Source: Diabrotica undecimpunctata (Eukaryota > Arthropoda > Insecta > Coleoptera > Chrysomelidae). From it: DNA of 64,000 bases. A model generated the notes under the pieces. That model did not search any database and was not told the DNA's origin. It was given only the letters and a program-made list of their open reading frames with translations. This document shows, one piece after another, positions 16,873 through 61,900 of the stretch. Made by a program: the position numbers and the translations under genes. The stretch lies in contig NC_092806.1 in assembly GCF_040954645.1 (NCBI RefSeq), positions 116,666,458 to 116,730,457 of the forward strand. The letters are read 5' to 3'. Positions within the stretch are counted from its first letter, which is position 1. The number at the start of each line of letters is the position of its first letter.

Positions 16873-18064
16873 CATGGATACCGATCGCAAAGCAAAGTTT
16901 GACGTTTGCCAAAAAAATTATTGTAGAACCAAAACATTGAAGAAAATATACCGAGTAATACAAGAAAATCTAAATCCTATATATGGAGACAATTTATGAT
17001 GTTCTGTGTGGATCGCAACTACAAATTAGATGCAGAAAATAACAACGAGAGACTAGCATTCATTCTAAATAACTGGGCCTTCAACATGCGAAAAATTGAT
17101 GGTAGTGATTACAAGGAGAGTGTTATTAAAACCATATGGAACACTACTGCAAAATTGGTACAAGAAAAATATTTCTGTGAGTATCACAGACATATTGATC
17201 CCTTCAAAGATATAACCTTCAAGGAAGCGAGAGCGGCTCGTGATAGTAAGAGAAAATTGTTGCAAACTGTACCCGATAAAAGGAAAATGAGTTCTGTCGC
17301 TATGACTTCGGATGAATATAAAAATATGTGCTTACAATGGGACGAAGACACGCCAGATGGACTCCAAAAGAAGTTTTTTCATATAGCTGCCGTAGAATTA
17401 GATTGGAGAGGTAACGAAGCAAGTTTTCCAAGTTACATTTTTTCAAGGAAGAGACTAACAACAAAGGCTGTTTAACAAACAGAATTGCATATAACCCGAT
17501 ATTCTCCAAAACCCGCCAAGGTGGTGATAAAAACTGTGCAGATAATAAATGGCTTACTCAAAATTTAAAGAATCCTGAAATGTGTCCTGTGAGATTATAC
17601 CGGAAACTTATATCGAAAAGGGAAACTAATACCAATGATAGACTTTTTCTGACTGTGAATGGCAAGTGGAATAAATATAATAATAGTAATTGGTACAAGA
17701 ATTGTCCTATTGGTATTAATACAATATCCAAATGGACAAAAATATCCGCAGAAAAGATAGGATTAGACACTAAAAAAGTGAAAATAACGAATCACTCTAA
17801 TCGTGCCACTGCAGTTAGTTAGTTACTACAATCTGGCGTTAGTGAACAACAAGCTATGAAAATTACTGGACATGGAAGTTCGAACTCGATGAAACCGTAT
17901 TACATCTTAGTGCCGAACATCATTAGAACATAGTGAATACTTTTAGGAATACTCCAAGTACATCAAGTAATAATAGCAACAATACATTGTATCCACCTAA
18001 TAACGGTCATACTATTCAAAATTTTTACAATTGCACCGTTTATAATAATTATAGTCGAGAATAA
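16873..18064 (+). pseudogene. Crypton tyrosine recombinase, broken
   Basis: I start at the ATG 16873 (MDTDRKAKFDVCQKNYC). A TGA at 16996 interrupts, then 160 codons are open (16996-17475). They hold a SAM-like core-binding region, the KTIWNTTAKLVQEKYF helix and the first catalytic Arg in AVELDWRGNEA (residue 138 of that stretch). A frameshift near 17445 leads into CLTNRIAYNPIFSKTRQGGD, MCPVRLYRKLISKR and WYKNCPIGINTISKWTK. The catalytic C-terminus follows: ITNHSNRATAVS, a TAG at 17821, QSGVSEQQAMKITGHGSSNS, and MKPYY with the nucleophile. The R, H-x-x-R, H and Y residues are all visible. The same catalytic fold is found in KIAA1958/ZMYM-type domesticated Cryptons. With two stops and one shift it is non-functional but young enough to reconstruct by alignment. 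Confidence 0.85.
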
Positions 18065-20306: not shown

Positions 20307-21524
20307 CCTGATCAAATTCCAGTTGAACTGTTAAAAGCCTTAGGTGACGATAATATAAAGAGACTCACCCGAATTCTCAACCACATATATGTAGAGGGCA
20401 ACATCCTGGAAGAATGGCTTAAATCGATATTTTTACCTCTAACCAAAAAACAACAATCCCAAATCATGTAATGACTATAGATTGATAAGCCTAATGTGCC
20501 ACCCTTTAAAGATTCTCTTGTTATATTCTCTATTAAGGCTATATACTGGAACCAGAAAGCCGTAGTAAAGGTGAACTATATAGAAACAAATAATATACCG
20601 ATTGCGAGAGGGGTTAGGCAAGGATGCGTCTTGTCTCCGACGCTTTTCAACGTGTACTCACAGGTCATATTCAGAAAAGCCTTATGGAAAAAAAAGAGGG
20701 AATAAAAATTGGTGGAGAAATCATAAACACCATGAGATTTGCAGGTGACACGGTAATTATGGCTGAGAGTATAGAAGAACTACAAACTTTACTAGATGCA
20801 ATAAATAGTGAATGCATTCAAATGGGACTTGACATCAACACAGATAAGACCAAATTTATGATAGTATCAAGGAGTCCAATAAATAATGAACAACTAATTC
20901 TTGGTGGACAGCAAATAGAGAGAGTGACAAAATATAAATATCTGGGAGCTTACATCAACACAGAATTAGATCCAGACCAAGAGGTCCGGGTACGAATAGA
21001 AATGGCAAGGGCAGCGTTCTTAAAATTCAAGCAATTGTTCTGTGACAAAAATCTGAATGCTGCGCTGAGACTGAGGTTTGTTGAATGTTACATCTGGTCG
21101 CAACTATTGTACGGGGTAAAAACATGGACACTAAAAGCGCAAATAGTTAAGAAGATTGAAGCCTTTGAACTTTGGATATACCGGAGAATGTTGAGAATTC
21201 CATGGACTGCCAGGGTCACCAATGAGGAAGTGCTGAGAAGGATGGGTCGAGACAAAAAATTGTTGAGAACGATAAAAGTGCGCATGACTGCATACCTTGA
21301 ACACATACTGAGAAATAATAAATATAGTCTTCTGCAGGTCATCATGCAGGGTAGAGTCGATGGCAAAAAGGGAATAGGTAGAAAGAGGAAGTCATGGCTG
21401 CGAAATATTCGAGACTGGACAAACATGACTGTAGACGAATTATTCCACGTTGCAAAAGACAGAGAAGCTTTTAAAAATGTGGTCGCCAACCTCCGTTAAT
21501 GGGGACGGCATAGGAAGAAGAAGA
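20307..21524 (+). mobile_element. 5'-truncated LINE with 11-bp TSD
   Basis: Perfect direct repeats AGTACACGCGT at 20296-20306 and 21525-21535 bound the copy. The 3' end is a (GAA)n tail after the RT stop codon. The 5' part (20307-20460) encodes RPDQIPVELLKALGDDNIKR and NHIYVEGNILEEWLKSIFLP. The sequence then jumps to the region just before RT motif B, so about 100 residues, including motif A, are deleted. Confidence 0.9.
20624..21499 (+). CDS. LINE reverse transcriptase C-terminal ORF (291 codons, remnant)
   Basis: This is an open remnant of LINE ORF2, probably not a functional gene. Motif B (ARGVRQGCVLSPTLFN) lies just upstream at about 20605-20660 in the overlapping frame, so a frameshift near 20690 precedes it. 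Inside: motif C as MRFAGDTVIMAES (usual YADD changed to FAGD, losing one catalytic Asp), INTDKTKFMIVSR, KYKYLGAYI, YGVKTWTLKAQIVKKIEAFE, RRMLRIPWTARVTNEEVL, GKKGIGRKRKSWLRNIRDW and a final REAFKNVVANLR-stop. The C-terminal half is unusually intact. The motif C change and missing motif A preclude activity. Confidence 0.82.
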   Translation: MRLVSDAFQRVLTGHIQKSLMEKKEGIKIGGEIINTMRFAGDTVIMAESIEELQTLLDAINSECIQMGLDINTDKTKFMIVSRSPINNEQLILGGQQIERVTKYKYLGAYINTELDPDQEVRVRIEMARAAFLKFKQLFCDKNLNAALRLRFVECYIWSQLLYGVKTWTLKAQIVKKIEAFELWIYRRMLRIPWTARVTNEEVLRRMGRDKKLLRTIKVRMTAYLEHILRNNKYSLLQVIMQGRVDGKKGIGRKRKSWLRNIRDWTNMTVDELFHVAKDREAFKNVVANLR

Positions 21525-42880: not shown

Positions 42881-44203
42881 TTTTTAGGTTTCATATACAA
42901 ACTTCCTCCAATTCTTCTTGTTGCTTGCCAATTTCTTCGCTTGCTCCTTGGTGACTCCTCTCCTGTCTAGGATGGCGGCAATTTCATCGTCCCAGGTCTT
43001 CATGGGTCTGCCCCTCGGTCTTTTCAAGGTTCTTCTCGCTTCCCACACTTGTTTCACTTGGCTTTTTTTATCCATCCTTACCATGTGGCCGTACCATCTC
43101 AGTTGGGCTTCTTCGATTTATTTCTCTATTGATTGGACTTTAAGGCGTTCTCTTATTTCATCGTTCCGTATCCTGTCCATTCTGGTCACCCCTAGTACTC
43201 TTCTTAGATACTTCATTGAAATACTTTGCAGTTTATTTTTTAGTCTGGTGGTGAGCGTCTAGCTTTCACTTCCAAATGTTAAGATAGGTACAAAAACTGT
43301 GTTGTAGATAGCTATCTTTGCTTTTTGGGATACTTCTTTTTTCGATAGGAATGTGCTCTTAATTGCGTGGTATATCCGGGAAGCATTTGCTATTCGATTG
43401 TTTATCTCTGCTTCTTGTGTACCCCTACTCTCTAGTTGCACTCCCAGGTATTTAAAGGTTTCGACTTGTTCTAAAGTATAGTTATTGATTTTAATGTTTG
43501 TATGTTGATCTGTTTTCCCACATACCATGACCTTGGTTTTACTTTCATTAATTCTCAGGTTACGTTTTTCGAGTTTATCTCTCCAGATCTGGAGGTTTCT
43601 CTTAAGTGCGTCCTCGTTTCTTCCAAATATGACGAGGTCATCTGCAAATGCGCACTCCGCTATCTGTATCATTTCCAGGTTTCTATGTCCAACAAATATT
43701 CTTGATGTTTCTTCTCTAGTTTCTTTCATTACATCATCTAGTACAATATTGAACAGGATGGGGCCTAGTACACCTCCTTGCCGTAAGCCATCATTGACTC
43801 TAAACTCTTCTGATTCCATATTATCTGTTCTTACTCTGTTTCTTGTGTTCTGGTATAGGCTCATAATAGCTTTTCTGAGTTTGCTGTCTACTTCTCTGTT
43901 TCTTAGGCTTTTGTCTATTTCGGTTCGCGGGGTTTTATCAAATGCTTTTTCGAGGTCTATGAAGGCTTGGTATAGTTCCGTATTTGTATTTCGTGCATTT
44001 TGTATTAGATGCTTGAGTGTAAAAACATGGTCATGGATGCTTCTTCCCTTCCTGAAACCGCTCTGTGACTGCTCCAGCTTATGGTCTACTTCTTGAAGTA
44101 GTCTTTTCTCCAGTACTCGTTCGTAAACTTTGGAAGGGATACTCAGGAGAGTTATACCTCTGTAGTTGCTGCATTCTCGTGTGTCACCTTTTTTGAAAAT
44201 GTA
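42881..44203 (-). pseudogene. LINE reverse transcriptase with only two nonsense codons
   Basis: The minus-strand frame is open from about 44203 to 43259, then continues to 42884 with two in-frame stops (43261-43263 region and about 43120). In order: IFKKGDTRECSNYRGITLLS, IPSKVYERVLEKRLL, SGFRKGRSIHDHVFTLKHLI, motif A (YQAFIDLEKAFDKT), motif B (RVNDGLRQGGVLGPILFN), motif C (CAFADDLVIFGRNEDALKRN), NLRINESKTKVMVCG, FKYLGVQLESRGTQEAEINN, FVPILTFGSES, RWYGHMVRMDKK and GRPMKTWDDEI. All RT catalytic residues are present. About 440 codons survive; endonuclease and ORF1 are absent (5' truncation). It is the best-preserved RT in the window. Confidence 0.92.
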
Positions 44204-45650
44204 TTTTTTTTTAATTTATATAAAACACGAACGAATGAATATTTGTCTTTCGATATCTTTCGATATTAGTTGCAGTTAGTTATTCGAACAAAAAAAAATA
44301 ATTGCCGTTTGGTAGTTAGCGGATAAACTTGGCAATACTGTCAAAACCTTCAAAACACTAGTTAACAGATTGCAACAGTTCTTCAGCAGATTTCAATTTT
44401 ATGACTATTTTCTTATAATTTTGGGATGAAATGGTACCTAAATACCTTTTTGTTAATGTATTAGTTAGTTGCTGAAATTTGAATTATATTAAATTAAATT
44501 TAAAATATTTAAACTTTATTTAAAAACTTAAAAAAAACAAAATTAATTAATATTATATCGCATGCTCTTTCGCGATTTATTAAAAGGACATGTCAACACT
44601 GCCAAATACAAAACTCTCCTTCAATTGTAGCTAACTTCACTGCAATTTTCTATGTACTTTTGCCAGAAAAATTAATTCAACGCCGGTATAAAAGCTTCGC
44701 TTCAATAATTTGTCTTATTATTGAAGTATTCATTCATTTCAAGAAATTTCTACTTTTGTTAGATAAAATGGAACAATATTTAACATTCCAATTTTTCTTT
44801 CAAAGGAATTCTATCATTGACTACGTACACTCTGTAACACAGAAGCCACCTTTCAAAACCCGGAAAGCAATATTTCAATATGCAGAAAGAGAACATACAT
44901 TCGAGCATACCCTCTAGGTCAAGCCTCGGCGCGTCATGCAGTAAAACCATCAAGTTGTCCGAGCGTGGCGTGACATCTGAATGTGGAAAATAACAAGAAA
45001 AGTCATCCGGGCAATCCACTTTTCCAAAAAGGCTTTACGGAACGAGCTGTCACATCGAAGCAGGTCTCACAAGCGCGCGACATAACCACTGCCTGCTGAA
45101 TTATTAATTTTGGTTAGCTAATGAAGTCGTTCAATTCCAATTTCGGCTGAATAACGTTTTTTTGGAACGTTCTGGGGATTTTCCAGTTGCGCGGAGATTA
45201 TCTGGTGCTAGTGAAAAGTTGTAGTGTGTGTTGTTGTTGAGAGTTTCGGTATGATAAAAGCCTATATTTCATTGGAAGCTTAAAAAACTATACTTGATTA
45301 ATTATCTAACACAGGTTAACCCGATAAGGTATATTAGTTTTCAAATGAACATGAATACAAATTGTATTATAACTACTTTCTTGAGCTATCATGTATTTTT
45401 TAATTACCTATATAATTACAAAAAAAAACATTGATTGAAAAATTATTTTTTACTTAATATCCAAATCTAAACCGTATTCAAAATACAAATATTTAAAATG
45501 TAGTTAGGAATAATTAAGATCACCATATCGTAAATTGTTTTAAAAATAAATTATTTTAAAAAATTAAATAAAATATTTTACTTTGGATACTTGAAAATTA
45601 AAAATCCTTCAGTTTTAACAATGATTTGCTAAATTAGTGGTAAAGTATTT
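44204..45650. other. No recognisable feature
   Basis: AT-rich. The 85-codon plus-strand stretch 44660-44917 resembles nothing I know and its opposite strand is equally open, so I do not call it a gene. Confidence 0.45.
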
Positions 45651-52806: not shown

Positions 52807-54093
52807 TTATATTTTTTGATATAAGTGTTCAACTCTAAGGAATTGTAGCACAGCTTTTATTTGGTCAGGGTTGTTTAGGATATCTCGTACTTCACTTTTG
52901 AGTTTGTATTGTAATCTTCTGGCCGAATGTTTATGGCATTCAGTGAGAATATGTTTGATTGTCAAATATGATTGGCAGATTTGACAGGAGGGACGGATGC
53001 TAGAGGACATTAGGTAGCCGTGTGTGAGTTTTGAATGTACTATCCGAAGTCGTCTTATCACAATGAGATCTCGTCTTGAGAGGGCTGAATAGTCAAATGT
53101 AGGCTGACTGGTTATTGACGGTTGTATTTCGTGTAAGATCGAACGGTTAGAGTTCCAATGCTGCTGCCAAAGGAGTCTGGTTCTTCTTTTAATATATGAT
53201 TTTAGGTCCTTACAAATTTGAATTTTATCGGTGATTTCAGGTGATGCTGTAGCAAGTTTAGCATAGTGATCTGCAGTTTCATTGCCTTCTATATCAATAT
53301 AAGATGGCAGCCAGATTATGGTAACTGTTATGTTTTGGGACAAGATAATTTGGTAAGAGTCTAGGATCTTTTGGACGATTGGATGATCAGTAAATATATT
53401 TTTGATAGAATAGATTGATGCTAAAGAGTCGGTGCATATGGCAACCTGCTTATTAGGTGGAGATATATGGCTAAAAGCTTGCAATATACTAAATAATTCG
53501 CCAGTATGAACGCTGCTGATGGCTGGTATAAGTGATGACTTAATTAGTGAATGAGAGGTTATAACAGAGCAGCCTACTCCTGTGTCATTTTTTGAGGCAT
53601 CCGTGTATAATATTAGGTCGTATTTATTTGTATCTATAATGTCTTTAAATTCATTTATAATGATCTCTTTCGGATGTTTATTTTTATCAAAGTTGGTGAG
53701 CGAGGTGTTAAATTTGGGCATGGACATGATCCAAGGAGGAGATGGAGGGAGATAAAGAGGATGGGTATGTGTAAGAGAGATATCATTAAGTGTCTGTGCT
53801 AAAATTAGTGGAATAGGTTTTATTGGTGGTAAGAAATTGGTATTGTGTAAATTATACGTGGACATTACAAATAAGGGATGCACTGGATTAGAGGGGTTAG
53901 CTGATACCGATGCTGCATAAGAGAGTAGCAGTTGTTTTCGTCTTATACAAAGAGGAGGTTCGTTAGCTTCGCAATAAAGATTATCTACAGGACTAGATCG
54001 AAAAGCGCCAATACAAAGACGAAGGGCTGTGTTGTGAATTGAGTTTAGAAGGTTAATATATGTTTTGGAGGCGGATATATATATATGTGACAA
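52807..54093 (-). CDS. LINE ORF2 C-terminal half: RNase H and zinc knuckle (428 codons)
   Basis: Open for 428 codons but only the 3' half of ORF2. Residues 15-75 are the end-of-RT signature (NSIHNTALRLCIGAFRSSPV, EANEPPLCIRRKQLLLSYA). Residues about 160-280 are RNase H: LILYTDASKND (D165), SSVHTGELFSI (E199), AICTDSLASIY (D222), WLPSYIDIEGNETAD. In the last, the conserved His of WxPSHxG is Tyr265 while D275 remains. The C-terminus has RLRIVHSKLTHGYLM and CQICQSYLTIKHILTECHKH (CCHC). RNase H removes RNA from the hybrid during second-strand synthesis. The apparent start at 54093 is artificial: the RT frame enters through a frameshift in a short TA run near 54080. Confidence 0.88.
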   Translation of the reverse strand: MSHIYISASKTYINLLNSIHNTALRLCIGAFRSSPVDNLYCEANEPPLCIRRKQLLLSYAASVSANPSNPVHPLFVMSTYNLHNTNFLPPIKPIPLILAQTLNDISLTHTHPLYLPPSPPWIMSMPKFNTSLTNFDKNKHPKEIIINEFKDIIDTNKYDLILYTDASKNDTGVGCSVITSHSLIKSSLIPAISSVHTGELFSILQAFSHISPPNKQVAICTDSLASIYSIKNIFTDHPIVQKILDSYQIILSQNITVTIIWLPSYIDIEGNETADHYAKLATASPEITDKIQICKDLKSYIKRRTRLLWQQHWNSNRSILHEIQPSITSQPTFDYSALSRRDLIVIRRLRIVHSKLTHGYLMSSSIRPSCQICQSYLTIKHILTECHKHSARRLQYKLKSEVRDILNNPDQIKAVLQFLRVEHLYQKI

Positions 54094-54104
54094 CCATAAT
54101 CTAG

Positions 54105-54800
54105 CTTGGAGCGTATTAGTGATCTGTATATTTTAAGAAGTGAGTTTTCGTCAGATCCCCAATAATGATGTGATAGAGTTTTTATTATGTTTAGTCTTAT
54201 GCTCGTTTCTCCTTTTATGTAAATATATGTTGCTTCCAAGTTAGTCGTGAGTCAAACGTTAATCCGAGAATTTTGCATTGTTTAACAACAGGAAGAGGGA
54301 CATTGTTGATCAAAATAAGTGGAGATGGAGAAGGGGGACGTCTACTAAAGTTTATAATTTTAGATTTTACATAGGATAAAGATAACCCCATGTCACTAGT
54401 TTTTTTTAAAAGTGTGTTAACAGCAGTTTGAATAAGCTTCGAGGTGGTAGAAGAGTTTTGTCCATGATAGTAAATTACTAGATCATCAGCATACATGATA
54501 TGTTTAATAGGGGAAATGAGGTGAGAGCATAAATCACTTATTGCTAGATTAAAAAGTGTAGGACTTAGTACCGATCCCTGAGGTACGCCATCAGTTTGAG
54601 TATGAGTAGAAGATAAAATACCGTTGACAGAGACTCTGAACGATCTAGAAGATAGAAAATTTCGTATGAAGTTAAATATATTACCATTAATATTAAGAAG
54701 GATAGGATAAGTTTGTTTAATATACATTGCCTACTTATAGTGTCAAAAGCACCTTCAATATCAAATATGGCAGCTACGACTTCAAAGATAAGTTTTAATT
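54105..54800 (-). pseudogene. RT part of the I-like LINE (motif A to thumb)
   Basis: Minus-strand order: VAAIFDIEGAFDTISRQCIL (motif A, about 54790-54730), a frameshift, then 170 open codons (54727-54215). These contain FRVSVNGILSSTHTQTDGVP then QGSVLSPTLFNLAISDL (motif B), IKHIMYADDLVIYYHGQNSS (motif C, YADD intact), GLSLSYVKSKIINFSRRP and CKILGLTFDSRLTWKQHI. A second shift leads to LLKIYRSLIRSKLDYGCHIY near 54110. The catalytic Asp residues are all present; inactivity comes from two frameshifts and truncation. Confidence 0.88.
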
Positions 54801-57394: not shown

Positions 57395-57706
57395 TACACT
57401 CACCGGCTCAAAAAACAGAGCACTTGCACTTTTAAAATAAAAACTTAAAATTTTTAGTCTCTTTTATCGTTTATTATTATAATAACGTAAAGACAAACGA
57501 AACAAACTGTTTTAAGTAATTTCTAATAACAATTTCATAAAAAAAATCAGAAATAAAAAATATACTATTCTTATGACTTTTAAAAGTGCAAAGGTTGGTA
57601 TTCTATTGTTACTCTTTTGTTCTTCTTGATTTGAGTAAACTGTTAACTCGAATCAAGTGTCAAACATAATTTAATGTTAAATTGCGTTGGTTTAATCTTA
57701 ACAATT

Positions 57707-60331
57707 GAGGAGCATACATGCAAAAACCGATAAATCCACTTTTTCCAATTTCGAGATAAATGCCAAAAACTTATACAGCAAAATCCCATAATAATTTAAA
57801 GAAACATCATATTGGAATTAAATAGTAGTAGTAAGTCATGTATTAAAATCCTAGAATTTTAATATATTATCTTTTTTTACTGTTTTTATTTGTCATTTTT
57901 TTTTTAATTTATCGGGTTTTGTTTGAAAACCGAAATTTATCGGTTTTTGCCTGAAAGATATTTGCAAGAGCACTATATTTTTGTTGTTAATAAAAGAAAA
58001 TAAACGAACTATAATGTAGAAAATTATTTTTATTATTTAACAAGTTGAAAAAAGTAAAAAAGTCAAGTTAAATCTGAAGTGTTGGTTCCTCTTCCTCTTT
58101 CTCCTCATCCTTTTCATTTGAACTTTTGCCATTAAGCAATTCCCGGTACCAGTCAAGTTCTTGTAATTTCTCCCACTCTTTATCGAACTGTTGATTTAGT
58201 AAGTGTTTAAGGGATTTTTTTTTCTTTTCGGGGATACCCCGAGTCAATTCTTTTTCTGAGATGGTTAACTCAATATCGTAAAATTTTGGTTTCCAAAGGT
58301 TTTTAAAATTTTCCAACCCACTGGTAAAATAATAGTTTTGGAATGAACGTATTTTTATGAATTTGCCATTGTTAAATTTTTTTATTACAATTTTCTTTGT
58401 ATCGGCTAGCGATTTACTTTTTTCAAACCAACTTGAAGCTCTTTCACATTAAACAATCTACAATCAGTGCCTATCTTTTTAACAACTCCAATTTGTTTGT
58501 AAATTTCTTCATATTTCTCTCTAGAGAGAATTGTGGCTTTTTTTCTTAGAAGCTTTTCTACTCTCCCAAATACCCTGTCTGCTGGCAAATACGAATGGCC
58601 CCTGACTGGAAATACAAGTAATATTTCTGTTACTTGAACTGGAGCTTTAAATCTAAGCCAGAAGTACAGCGAATGAATAATATGGGTGTTTTTGTTTTGT
58701 CCACCGCACCCGTCGCAAAAGAGGCGAAGTGTCGTAATATTATCGTACTCTAAAGAATCCAAGTAATTAACAAGTGCAGAACCTATTTCAATTGATCCTC
58801 TACCTGCCTGATCTTCAGTCCACGTAAAAAAAGTTGGATGTTTGGACTGGCTATCAACGCAGCAAAAAACATACATACTAATCTGCTGTGCATAAAACGC
58901 ATCATTAATAGGTGTTTTGGGCAAAGGCTGCACCTGCTGCATATCAAAGCAGAATGTAATGGAATTTTCAGGAGTTTCTTTTAGCAGACTATAAAATGCA
59001 TTAGCCCTCTTTTGGTGGATACTCAACTCAGTTCGAAACTCTCTTTTCTTTACCTCGTTAATTTCCGTTCTAATTTTGAATTTAAGTCTGGTACATTGTG
59101 CGCACACATCTGATGCTGGAGTAGAAAACCCAATGTTAAAATCATTAACGAATATCCTTCTAAACATCGAAAAGTTTACATTATGTTCAGGGTCGCATTT
59201 AGTGAGGTACATGCCATGTAATTTCTTTATGCTTAGATCAGCGGCCAAATAAATTCGTCTTACTTTCTTTCTATTTTTATGGACATTTTTGTGGATATTT
59301 TGTGGACACGTGATCTCCATCCCCGATTTTCTTTTGGATTATTTCCATCTGACAATGTTTTAGCAACGTAGTATTGCGATCTTTTTTAATATTCACACAT
59401 TTCAAGAAAAATGCCTGACATACCTGAACTTTTTCTTGCTGACTCTTTTCGACAAGAAGTAGTGTACGGAAAAGTTACGCCCCTTGATTGCTCGTTCTGT
59501 TGTCGATCTTTTCCTTTCAATTGGAACTACTGACATGTAATGACACAATTTAATATCCTGTTCTGACTTCACATTATTTTCAAAAATTTTATTTCAAATG
59601 GCTCGAATGTCACTTTCAGCCATGCTATTGCAGTGATAAGTAGGGCCATTATGTTTGCAAACTATTGTAAAGTTTTCCAAATGAGGATCGCTATCACGAT
59701 ATCTAAAACAAAAAATGGATTAGGTAACGAACGTCTTAATTTATTCTTTACCTGTTACCTTTGCTTTTGCAATTTCTGCCTCTTGGTCTCACTTTTCTGT
59801 TTTTTCCTATTTCCTATACTAATTTCCAACACACTTGCTTCCATTGTTAAAACTTAATAAAATTATGTTAAACAACTGCTTAATACGTAATTCATAAACA
59901 ACATAACATAACCTCTTAATCCTTTGCCCCTAAATTCCGAAAACGTGATTAAGGTAACACAGTCCTCTCGTTTTTAATTTACAAACTACTACCATAGGAA
60001 AAGAAGTATACTTCTTTGTTTATGCTACTACTATAAAACGAAGCCCAAATCAGCATAAACAAACCTGCTATAAGTACGCACTATATTATGGATTTACATC
60101 ATCGATTGCGAATTAATTATTTAAAGATATATCGGGTTTTGCTTGAAATTTGGATTTATCGGCATTTGCTCGAACTGGTGAACTTTGTTCATCATTTTAA
60201 AGGAAAAATATCGGTTTTTGTTGGAATTTTATATTCTAGAAACATAGAGGGCTACTTAATTGATATTAATCCATATTCAGGTTAAAAAATTCAAAAAATG
60301 GATTTATCGGTTTTTGCATGTATGCTCCTCA
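57707..60331 (-). mobile_element. DNA transposon encoding a DUF7869-like protein, 32-bp TIRs, AATT TSD
   Basis: Perfect terminal inverted repeats of 32 bp: GAGGAGCATACATGCAAAAA + CCGATAAATCCA at 57707-57738 and its exact reverse complement at 60300-60331. Both are flanked by AATT (57703-57706, 60332-60335). Joining the flanks restores the Tc1 element right at its ATG. Subterminal copies of TATCGG(G/T)TTTTG(C/T) with TGAAA occur at both ends: about 57909, 57938 and the TIR on the left; about 60131, 60163, 60208 and the TIR on the right. The only gene recognised is the minus-strand DUF7869-like gene at 58068-59844. The GAGG start and 4-bp TSD recall the Sola2 superfamily, but that is recollection, not a search result. 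Confidence 0.88.
58068..59844 (-). pseudogene. DUF7869-like protein, candidate transposase, one intron, few frameshifts
   Basis: Exon 1 starts at 59844 (MEASVLEISIGNRKKQKSET) and ends at 59759. A 56-bp GT-AG intron (59758-59703, ending TTTTGTTTTAG) joins it in phase to RYRDSDPHLENFTIVCKHNG. Then come SVVPIERKRSTTERAIKGRN, VCQAFFLKCVNIKKDR and, after a shift near 59320, 304 open codons (59320-58406). These hold a CxxC pair (DVCAQC, 73-76), FCFDMQQVQPLPK (D126), YVFCCVDSQSK, TFFTWTEDQAGRGSIEIGSA, LRLFCDGCGGQNKNTHIIHS (D203) and PVRGHSYLPADRVFGRVEKL (D248, E255). A frameshift near 58420 leads to the acidic C-terminus ending at 58068. The spaced acids suggest an RNase H-like DD(D/E) nuclease. A TGA (about 59595) and two shifts inactivate this copy. 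Confidence 0.8.
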
Positions 60332-60335
60332 ATTA

Positions 60336-61900
60336 TGGTTGTAAATCCCGAAACAGCGGCTGCTATTGTTGCTTTGCTTCAAGACGGAGGAGTAAGCGAT
60401 ATGTGGTTCAAAAGTATAAGTATCCAATAGTGCACGTATTTTTACACGTTTTTTTGGCAACCGGTGCTTACACTAGACGACCTGAAACCGGTCTCCGACA
60501 AAGAACTCGTGACCGTGATAATCGCTTTATCATCGTACAAAGTCTACGAGATCGTCCTGCCACGGCTGTACGAAATTAACTTCAGTACGTCCGGAATACT
60601 AACGTAAAGTGAACGAACAATTAAACGAAGGCTTGGAGAAACAAATTTAAGCAGTCGCAGACCTGCAACAGGCCTGTAACTTCTCAGGCGCCATCGAGTT
60701 GCGCGGCTTCAGTTTGCCAGAAACCATGCTTATTTTAGTGTAAATAATTGTAGGCACAGAATGGAACGGATGGAACAGAAGAACCAGAAATCCAAAGAAG
60801 AATAATAAAGGGAAACAAAGCTTATTTTTCACTCGATCATGTGTTTCGCTCCAAAAACACAACTGGAGAACGAAAATTAGGGTCTACAAAACTATTATCA
60901 GACCAATAGTATGTTATGCATGCGAGACATGGGTGACGATAGAAGAGACAAAAAGAAAACTGGAAGTCTTCGAAAGAAAAGTCCTAAGAAAGATATTTGG
61001 ACCTATTAACGAAAACGGAATATGGAGATCCAGGTATAACCTTGAACTCTACCAACTGTTCAAAGAGACACCGATCTCAGAATTCGTTAAAATTCAGAGA
61101 CTTCGCTGGGCTGATCATGTAGTAAGAATGGAGACAGAAAGATTGCCGAAAAGAGCCCTAGATAGTAAAATGCAGGGCGCAAGACCAAAAGGAAGATCAC
61201 GGAAAAGATGGGAGGATGAAGTGGCAGCGGACGCGCAAAATTTGCTAGACGTGAGAACCTGGAGAAGATCGGCGCGGGACCGACAAGGTTGGAGGCATAG
61301 TTTGGAGGAGGCCAAGTCCGATTTGGGCTGTAGCGCCATTGGAGATAGAGAGAATTGGATGCACGTTTAATTTACCAATGAGTCCAGGTTTACCTTGTGG
61401 TCTCCAGATGGCCGTGAGAGAGTATGACGAAGACCACATAAGCGTTTTGCAGAATGTACCTTCAATCCTAGGGTAGGCTATCAAGGGGACTCAAATATGG
61501 TCTGGGCTCGAATTTCTCTAGAAGCACGTACATAATTGTACATCGTTCCGAGAGGCTCCATAAGAGCTGCCAGGTACATTGATGAAATTTTCCCCCAAGA
61601 TTTTGGAACCTTATGCTGGTTTTGTTGAAAATTACTTTATCTCTCAACAGTTTTTAAATGAAATAAACATTCCTTTAATTGATTGGCCAGCATTGAGTCC
61701 AAAAGCAAACCCAACCTAACATGTTTGGGATATGCTTGGGCAAAGGATACGAAGTCGTGTTCCTGCCCCTCAGTTACAAGAAGTCCTTTTAGAAAAATGG
61801 AAACTTATTCCCCAATAGGACATTTCTCATTTGATTTTAGGCATGCCAAGGAGAATTCAGGCAATAATTCGAGTACGTGGAGGAAACATTTATTATTAAA
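60336..61900 (+). pseudogene. Tc1-like transposase, interrupted by a LINE
   Basis: The ATG at 60336 directly follows the AATT duplication (MVVNPETAAAIVALLQDGG). After a frameshift come YTRRPETGLRQRTRDRDN and RFIIVQSLRDRPATAV, then TIKRRLGETNLSSRRPATG and RRHRVARLQFARNHAYFSV (bipartite HTH, GRRR-like hook). The LINE at 60758-61352 splits the gene here. Downstream: FTNESRFTLWSPDGRERV (first catalytic Asp changed to Asn), FNPRVGYQGDSNMVWARISL, a deletion removing the HDNARPH region with the second Asp, then NIPLIDWPALSPKANPT-stop-HVWDML. There the Glu codon region has become a stop. It ends RRIQAIIRVRGGNIYY-stop at about 61900. All three catalytic acids are lost. Confidence 0.9.
60758..61352 (+). 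mobile_element. 5'-truncated LINE inserted in the Tc1 transposase, 12-bp TSD
   Basis: AATTGTAGGCAC (60746-60757) and AATTGGATGCAC (61353-61364), 10 of 12 identical, flank the copy at the point where the transposase frame breaks and resumes. The insert encodes the C-terminal part of a LINE RT: EEPEIQRRIIKGNKAYFSLD, VYKTIIRPIVCYACETWVT, then an open stretch (60933-61352) with KRKLEVFERKVLRKIFGPIN, RLRWADHVVRMETERLPKRA, GRSRKRWEDEVAADAQNLLD and SLEEAKSDLGCSAI. The stretch runs without a stop into Tc1 sequence (…HV-stop). Confidence 0.88.

Follow-up and report, generated by a model that had tools for sequence, protein, structure and literature searches.

A DUF7869 gene between inverted repeats in Diabrotica undecimpunctata probably encodes the DDD transposase of a DNA transposon

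A 2624 bp element in the genome of Diabrotica undecimpunctata (1.74 Gb) is best explained as a cut-and-paste DNA transposon whose DUF7869 protein acts as an RNase H-fold DDD transposase, a reading that we give a probability of about 94%. The element lies at positions 57707..60330, with its gene on the minus strand, of the 64 kb stretch that we analyzed (hereafter the window), which is part of a contig of 163,134,084 bases. Comparison of its ends and of its copies in the genome places it in what we call family A. An original prediction, made from the letters of the window, had proposed that the DUF7869-like protein is the transposase. Terminal inverted repeats (TIRs) and target-site duplications (TSDs) found throughout the families of these elements, a predicted RNase H-like fold and a conserved acidic triad all speak for this proposal, and DUF7869 is therefore very probably a transposase.

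Ends, copies and empty sites of the element

The two 32 bp TIRs, at 57707..57738 (plus strand) and 60299..60330 (minus strand), are identical to each other, as had been predicted. The predicted start of the element also stands, while its end lies at 60330, one base before the 60331 originally given. AATT flanks the TIRs at 57703..57706 and 60331..60334, and this duplication, likewise anticipated, is seen as a lone AATT at three empty sites described below. Extended to take in the AATT, the arms span 49 nt with 92% identity. A motif scan placed TATCGG(G/T)TTTTG in both TIRs, one copy apiece, and at four other places close to the ends: on the left at 57910-57921 and 57938-57949 (57910..57949, plus strand), and on the right at 60130-60141 and 60209-60220 (60130..60220, plus strand), where a degenerate copy occupies 60153-60175. 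Allowing at most one mismatch, TATCGGKTTTTG occurs six times in the 64 kb, where 1.03 occurrences are expected, and all six are inside the element, in agreement with the predicted TATCGG(G/T)TTTTG(C/T) repeats near both ends; none of 100 shuffles reached this count. The positions of the subterminal repeats are shared with other copies of the element, with losses. They are candidate binding sites through which the transposase would probably hold the ends.

A genome search for further copies, scored for 40 of 193 candidates, gave 119 matches. Besides the window, 17 of these span at least 2,623 of the 2,625 query bases without a break, at 87-95% identity and on several chromosomes. We examined 28 family A copies, eight returned by the search and 20 hand-picked, and excluded from the TSD count four that lacked one recognizable end. 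Identical 4 bp flanks were found in 21 of the remaining 24, so that the copies of about 2.6 kb with 4 bp duplications that the original prediction had suggested looking for do exist. Two of the exceptions, L017 and L018, carry nearly identical 12 bp flanks facing opposite ways and may represent a single insertion that entered the assembly twice; the third, L013, is flanked by AATA and TAAT. As a background control we compared 4-mers lying at least 8 bases further out, which agreed 4 times in 312 comparisons in family A and 0 times in 160 in family B, a second DUF7869 family introduced below.

The window's flanks, fused at a single AATT, were then used as the query of an empty-site search in which 40 of 474 candidate places were scored. 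Two of these were the window's own halves, and the remaining 38 cross the junction at 78-84% identity in stretches of 385-494 bases, which are therefore too short to contain the element. At all three loci of the host repeat that were aligned, the sequence runs unbroken over one AATT with no element present. The window element thus inserted into an older repeat and duplicated AATT. Chance or an assembly artefact is an exceedingly improbable source of such an element, and we rejected it in view of the dispersal of copies on several chromosomes, the site-specific duplications and the empty sites.

The interrupted repeat itself occupies 57467-57706 and 60335-60551 of the window. An open reading frame (ORF) in one of its copies elsewhere (L075:1066-1425) has no Pfam match and resembles a Tc1-type transposase by eye.

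The DUF7869 gene and its families

The gene of the window copy lies on the minus strand and, as predicted, contains a single 56 bp intron (59703..59758, GT-AG). Exon 1 (59759..59844) comprises 28 codons and 2 nt, and exon 2 (58068..59702) holds the broken transposase gene; the structure was derived from the ORF, its Pfam match and comparison with L002, another family A copy. Exon 1 is 100% identical to the first 29 residues of P0002, a 576-residue D. undecimpunctata protein that NCBI lists as an "uncharacterized protein". Relative to L002, the window gene carries one 44 bp deletion, one 24 bp deletion and several one-base insertions or deletions, and is broken because of them. Exon 2 of L002 is open across 573 codons, its translation shares 96% identity with P0002, and family A has at least one copy with an open second exon.

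The curated cut-off of PF25273, the Pfam model of DUF7869, is 26 bits. The window ORF (25.6 bits, E 1.1e-5) and P0002 (24.5 bits) score just under it, and P0002 carries PF25273 in its precomputed domain annotation. Scores above the cut-off were obtained for P0120 (33.5), P0041 (33.6), P0122 (65), P0123 (63.4) and P0124 (65.1 bits); families B, C and D lie well over it and the window's family A slightly under. P0120 and P0237 are further D. undecimpunctata proteins that are also called uncharacterized. A PF25273 scan of this genome returned 8786 first-look candidates, and all of the best 150, which were scored, exceeded the cut-off, while none of 14 named control genomes was positive.

Other DUF7869 genes also lie between TIRs with 4 bp duplications. 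Four additional families, each bounded using its own copies, were found. Family B (15 loci examined, two dropped) has ends GAAGCGTGCATTTCC, a length of 2.3-2.43 kb, an open frame of up to 539 residues and identical flanks in 11 of 13 copies. Families C, D and E are represented by six, three and three insertions hand-picked from the PF25273 scan, and family E is assigned to DUF7869 by its PF25273 match in that scan. Family C (ends GAATCGCAAACTGC, 2751 bp, an open frame of 619 residues) has identical flanks in 6/6 copies, which are 99.15-99.96% identical, with a shorter frame of 529 residues in L053. Family D has ends GAAGGGGTC and identical flanks in 3/3 copies; family E has ends GAATCACTTATTTGAG, a length of about 2.7 kb, an open frame of 578 residues, identical flanks in 3/3 copies and 99.6-99.96% identity between them. 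Near-identical copies with long open frames make families C and E look recently active. Near-twins of 99.96% identity, which point to very recent movement, stand at different sites in both: L049 and L050 (family C, 619 residues), and L072 and L073 (family E, 578 residues). Across families the elements measure 2.3-2.9 kb, and their termini read GAGG in family A, GAAG in B and D, and GAAT in C and E.

Of the 49 insertions that retain both ends in the five families together, 44 are flanked by identical 4-mers. All but one of these are ANNT (43, against one AATA), comprising 33 AWWT and ten ANNT with one G or C. A pyrimidine occupies the position next outside the TSD in 63 of the 64 flanks of families A and B and, read by eye, in 22 of 24 flanks of families C, D and E. 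The ANNT duplications and the outer pyrimidine therefore describe a target that is mostly YANNTR.

Families A, C and D share 24-26% identity with family B, and A and C share 30% over 409 residues (E 2e-51); the profile of alignment A1 matched family B with a probability of 100. A protein search with the P0002 family found 554 homologs, and the 120 listed include proteins of beetles, a butterfly and a bug, the last named a transposon protein. Searches from other families gave at least 112 and at least 32 matches, adding leafhopper, cockroach, wasp, stick insects and springtail. Two predicted insect proteins differ in architecture: P0226 joins its DUF7869 part to PF01156, and P0021 has a long C-terminus absent from the others. 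They are either gene-model fusions or real host-transposase fusions.

Predicted fold, catalytic residues and proposed mechanism

In two AlphaFold models of DUF7869 proteins, whose predicted local distance difference test (pLDDT) values are 88 and 89, the chain adopts an RNase H-like integrase/transposase fold, the kind of fold that the original prediction had expected. Neither of the two outcomes that the original prediction had named as refuting it, other DUF7869 genes never between such TIRs or a fold unlike RNase H, was observed. Their best structural matches in Foldseek were retroviral integrases, IstA and TnsB. The predicted triad of P0002 consists of D297 in strand 291-298, D374 after strand 368-373 and D419 in helix 417-430, placed by the secondary structure of the model and not by distances. 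These sites would correspond to strand 1, the position after strand 4 and the helix after strand 5, as in RNase H-like DD(E/D) transposons.

Conservation was counted in 267 sequences, four of them our own translations (P0001 and P0122-P0124), after a CUB-domain protein that matched 16% of the query (P0236) had been excluded. At the three triad positions D occupies 263/263, 263/265 and 262/262 ungapped rows. Two further features are conserved: a glutamate between the first two triad residues, E340, is present in 264 of the 265 ungapped rows, and the cysteines C244 and C247 of a CxxC that shortly precedes the catalytic domain are kept in 262/262 and 263/264. This motif and the acidic motifs of the original prediction are present in the ORF as quoted. 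For the third acid two residues had been offered, D248 and E255 of the window ORF, which are D419 and E426 of P0002. In a pattern survey that preceded this count, 217 of 236 proteins had the motif and 208 had E at the place of E426. In the present set the E426 position holds K or R in 32 of the 263 ungapped rows (R in the near-identical copies of family C, K in copy L037 of family D), and we rejected it as the third catalytic residue. D419 was retained, and the triad is therefore probably DDD.

Several observations weigh against the transposase reading. The window copy itself is unable to make a DUF7869 protein. The template-modeling (TM) scores of the best Foldseek matches are low (0.15-0.31), because the models were matched only in part, and the VIA rows with larger coverage of the model have root-mean-square deviations of 8.6-18. 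Only two matches for one model and one for the other pass an E of 0.001, and the Foldseek lists also hold other RNase H-like proteins (NurA, MutS and Argonaute). Alignment A1 had no match among solved-structure sequences, where the window ORF gave two weak ones (E 0.54 and 0.99). In some copies the subterminal repeats are down to two to four, and five of the 49 insertions lack identical 4-mers (L013, L017, L018, L033 and L045).

A broken gene would also suit a different explanation, in which another transposase mobilizes a non-autonomous element and the DUF7869 gene travels along as a passenger. Transposon passengers exist, Fanzor genes in Sola2 elements being an example in the available text of one report (PMC3627910), but five families with differing ends each carry a DUF7869 gene, the window element holds no further stop-to-stop frame longer than 96 residues wholly within it, and both the predicted fold and the conserved triad are typical of transposases. 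On these grounds we rejected the passenger explanation, which we consider very improbable. With DUF7869 as the transposase, the protein would recognize the inverted ends, probably via the subterminal TATCGG(G/T)TTTTG repeats, pair them and excise the element. Joining to the target with a 4 bp stagger at the palindromic YANNTR would then yield the ANNT duplications. Catalysis by DUF7869 and a cut-and-paste mode are what we infer from the fold, the ends and the duplications.

Relation to Sola2 and other transposons

The element is probably a transposon of an already known kind. Compared by description, DUF7869 elements appear to work like Sola2, a group within the Sola superfamily, and probably are Sola2 themselves, in which case Pfam's DUF7869 would denote a part of the Sola2 transposase; this refinement is the placement towards which we lean. 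In the available text of the sources, Sola elements have a DDD transposase and 4 bp TSDs (PMC10741241), the TSDs of Sola2 in two slime molds are AT-rich and 4 bp long, AWWT in one and ATAT, AAAT or ATTT in the other (PMC3627910), and Sola is among the DNA transposons found in every arthropod of one survey (PMC6327564). The elements described here resemble Sola2 in their probable DDD triad, their TIRs and their AT-rich 4 bp duplications, of which 33 of 44 are AWWT. They differ in their length of 2.3-2.9 kb, against 7 kb of 5' sequence shared by the Sola2-Fanzor chimeras of one slime mold (PMC3627910). The Diabrotica genome-size paper counts Tc1-mariner and hAT miniature inverted-repeat transposable elements, together with Gypsy, among the prominent elements, and in its available text "Sola" occurs only inside the word Solanaceae (PMC8982398).

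Further points stand against the Sola2 placement. Eleven of the 44 matching TSDs are ANNT or AATA rather than AWWT, no Sola or slime-mold name appears among the matches listed for three protein searches, most rows of which are nameless, and the comparison is one of descriptions, not of transposase sequences. The termini give a mixed picture: the terminal motif of Sola2 is 5'-GRG, to which GAGG of family A conforms, whereas GAAG (B and D) and GAAT (C and E) do not. Alternatively, though we consider this less likely, DUF7869 elements may constitute a separate superfamily or a deeply branching sister of Sola2, still nameless. Pfam lists the domain as of unknown function, the word DUF7869 occurs in no paper of the collection of Creative Commons-licensed PubMed Central articles that was searched, and the GAGG, GAAG and GAAT termini together with the YANNTR target are unmatched in the published descriptions compared. 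Such a superfamily of DDD enzymes would be marked by E340 as a near-invariant fourth acid, the upstream CxxC, a GHS-xxxx-DR motif, YANNTR insertion and great abundance in insects, and would have gone unrecognized because its genes are annotated as uncharacterized proteins. On the other hand, an AT-rich 4 bp TSD with a DDD triad is the Sola2 description as published, and a group so abundant in insects is likely in Repbase already.

Other known systems are less similar. Tc1/mariner elements duplicate TA; the 4 bp ANNT found here differs from this, and neither Mos1 nor the SETMAR transposase domain had a sequence match with alignment A1. Retroviral integrases, IstA and TnsB share the predicted catalytic fold, but their third catalytic residue is E where it is probably D here, and they too had no sequence match with alignment A1. 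The duplication of piggyBac and Kolobok is also 4 bp, but it is a fixed TTAA, which occurs in none of the 44 matching duplications.

The window holds remains of other mobile elements. Two overlapping ORFs in different frames at 16927-17822 (plus strand) resemble one broken gene; the first has no Pfam match and the second matches DUF3504 (PF12012, E 4.7e-8), a domain known from Crypton-type tyrosine recombinases. Apparent fragments of retrotransposons without long terminal repeats (non-LTR) lie at 20618-21499 (plus) and 43259-44215 (minus), with reverse transcriptase (PF00078), and at 52807-54132 (minus), with RNase H (PF00075). Rfam gave no match in the window at the gathering threshold.

For DUF7869, a domain of unknown function would gain a function that explains the abundance of its genes, with 8786 first-look candidates (the best 150 scored) in this one genome. 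The YANNTR rule makes its insertions easy to spot, and insect gene sets, those of beetles, bugs and butterflies among them, in which DUF7869 proteins stand as uncharacterized probably include transposase genes in their counts.
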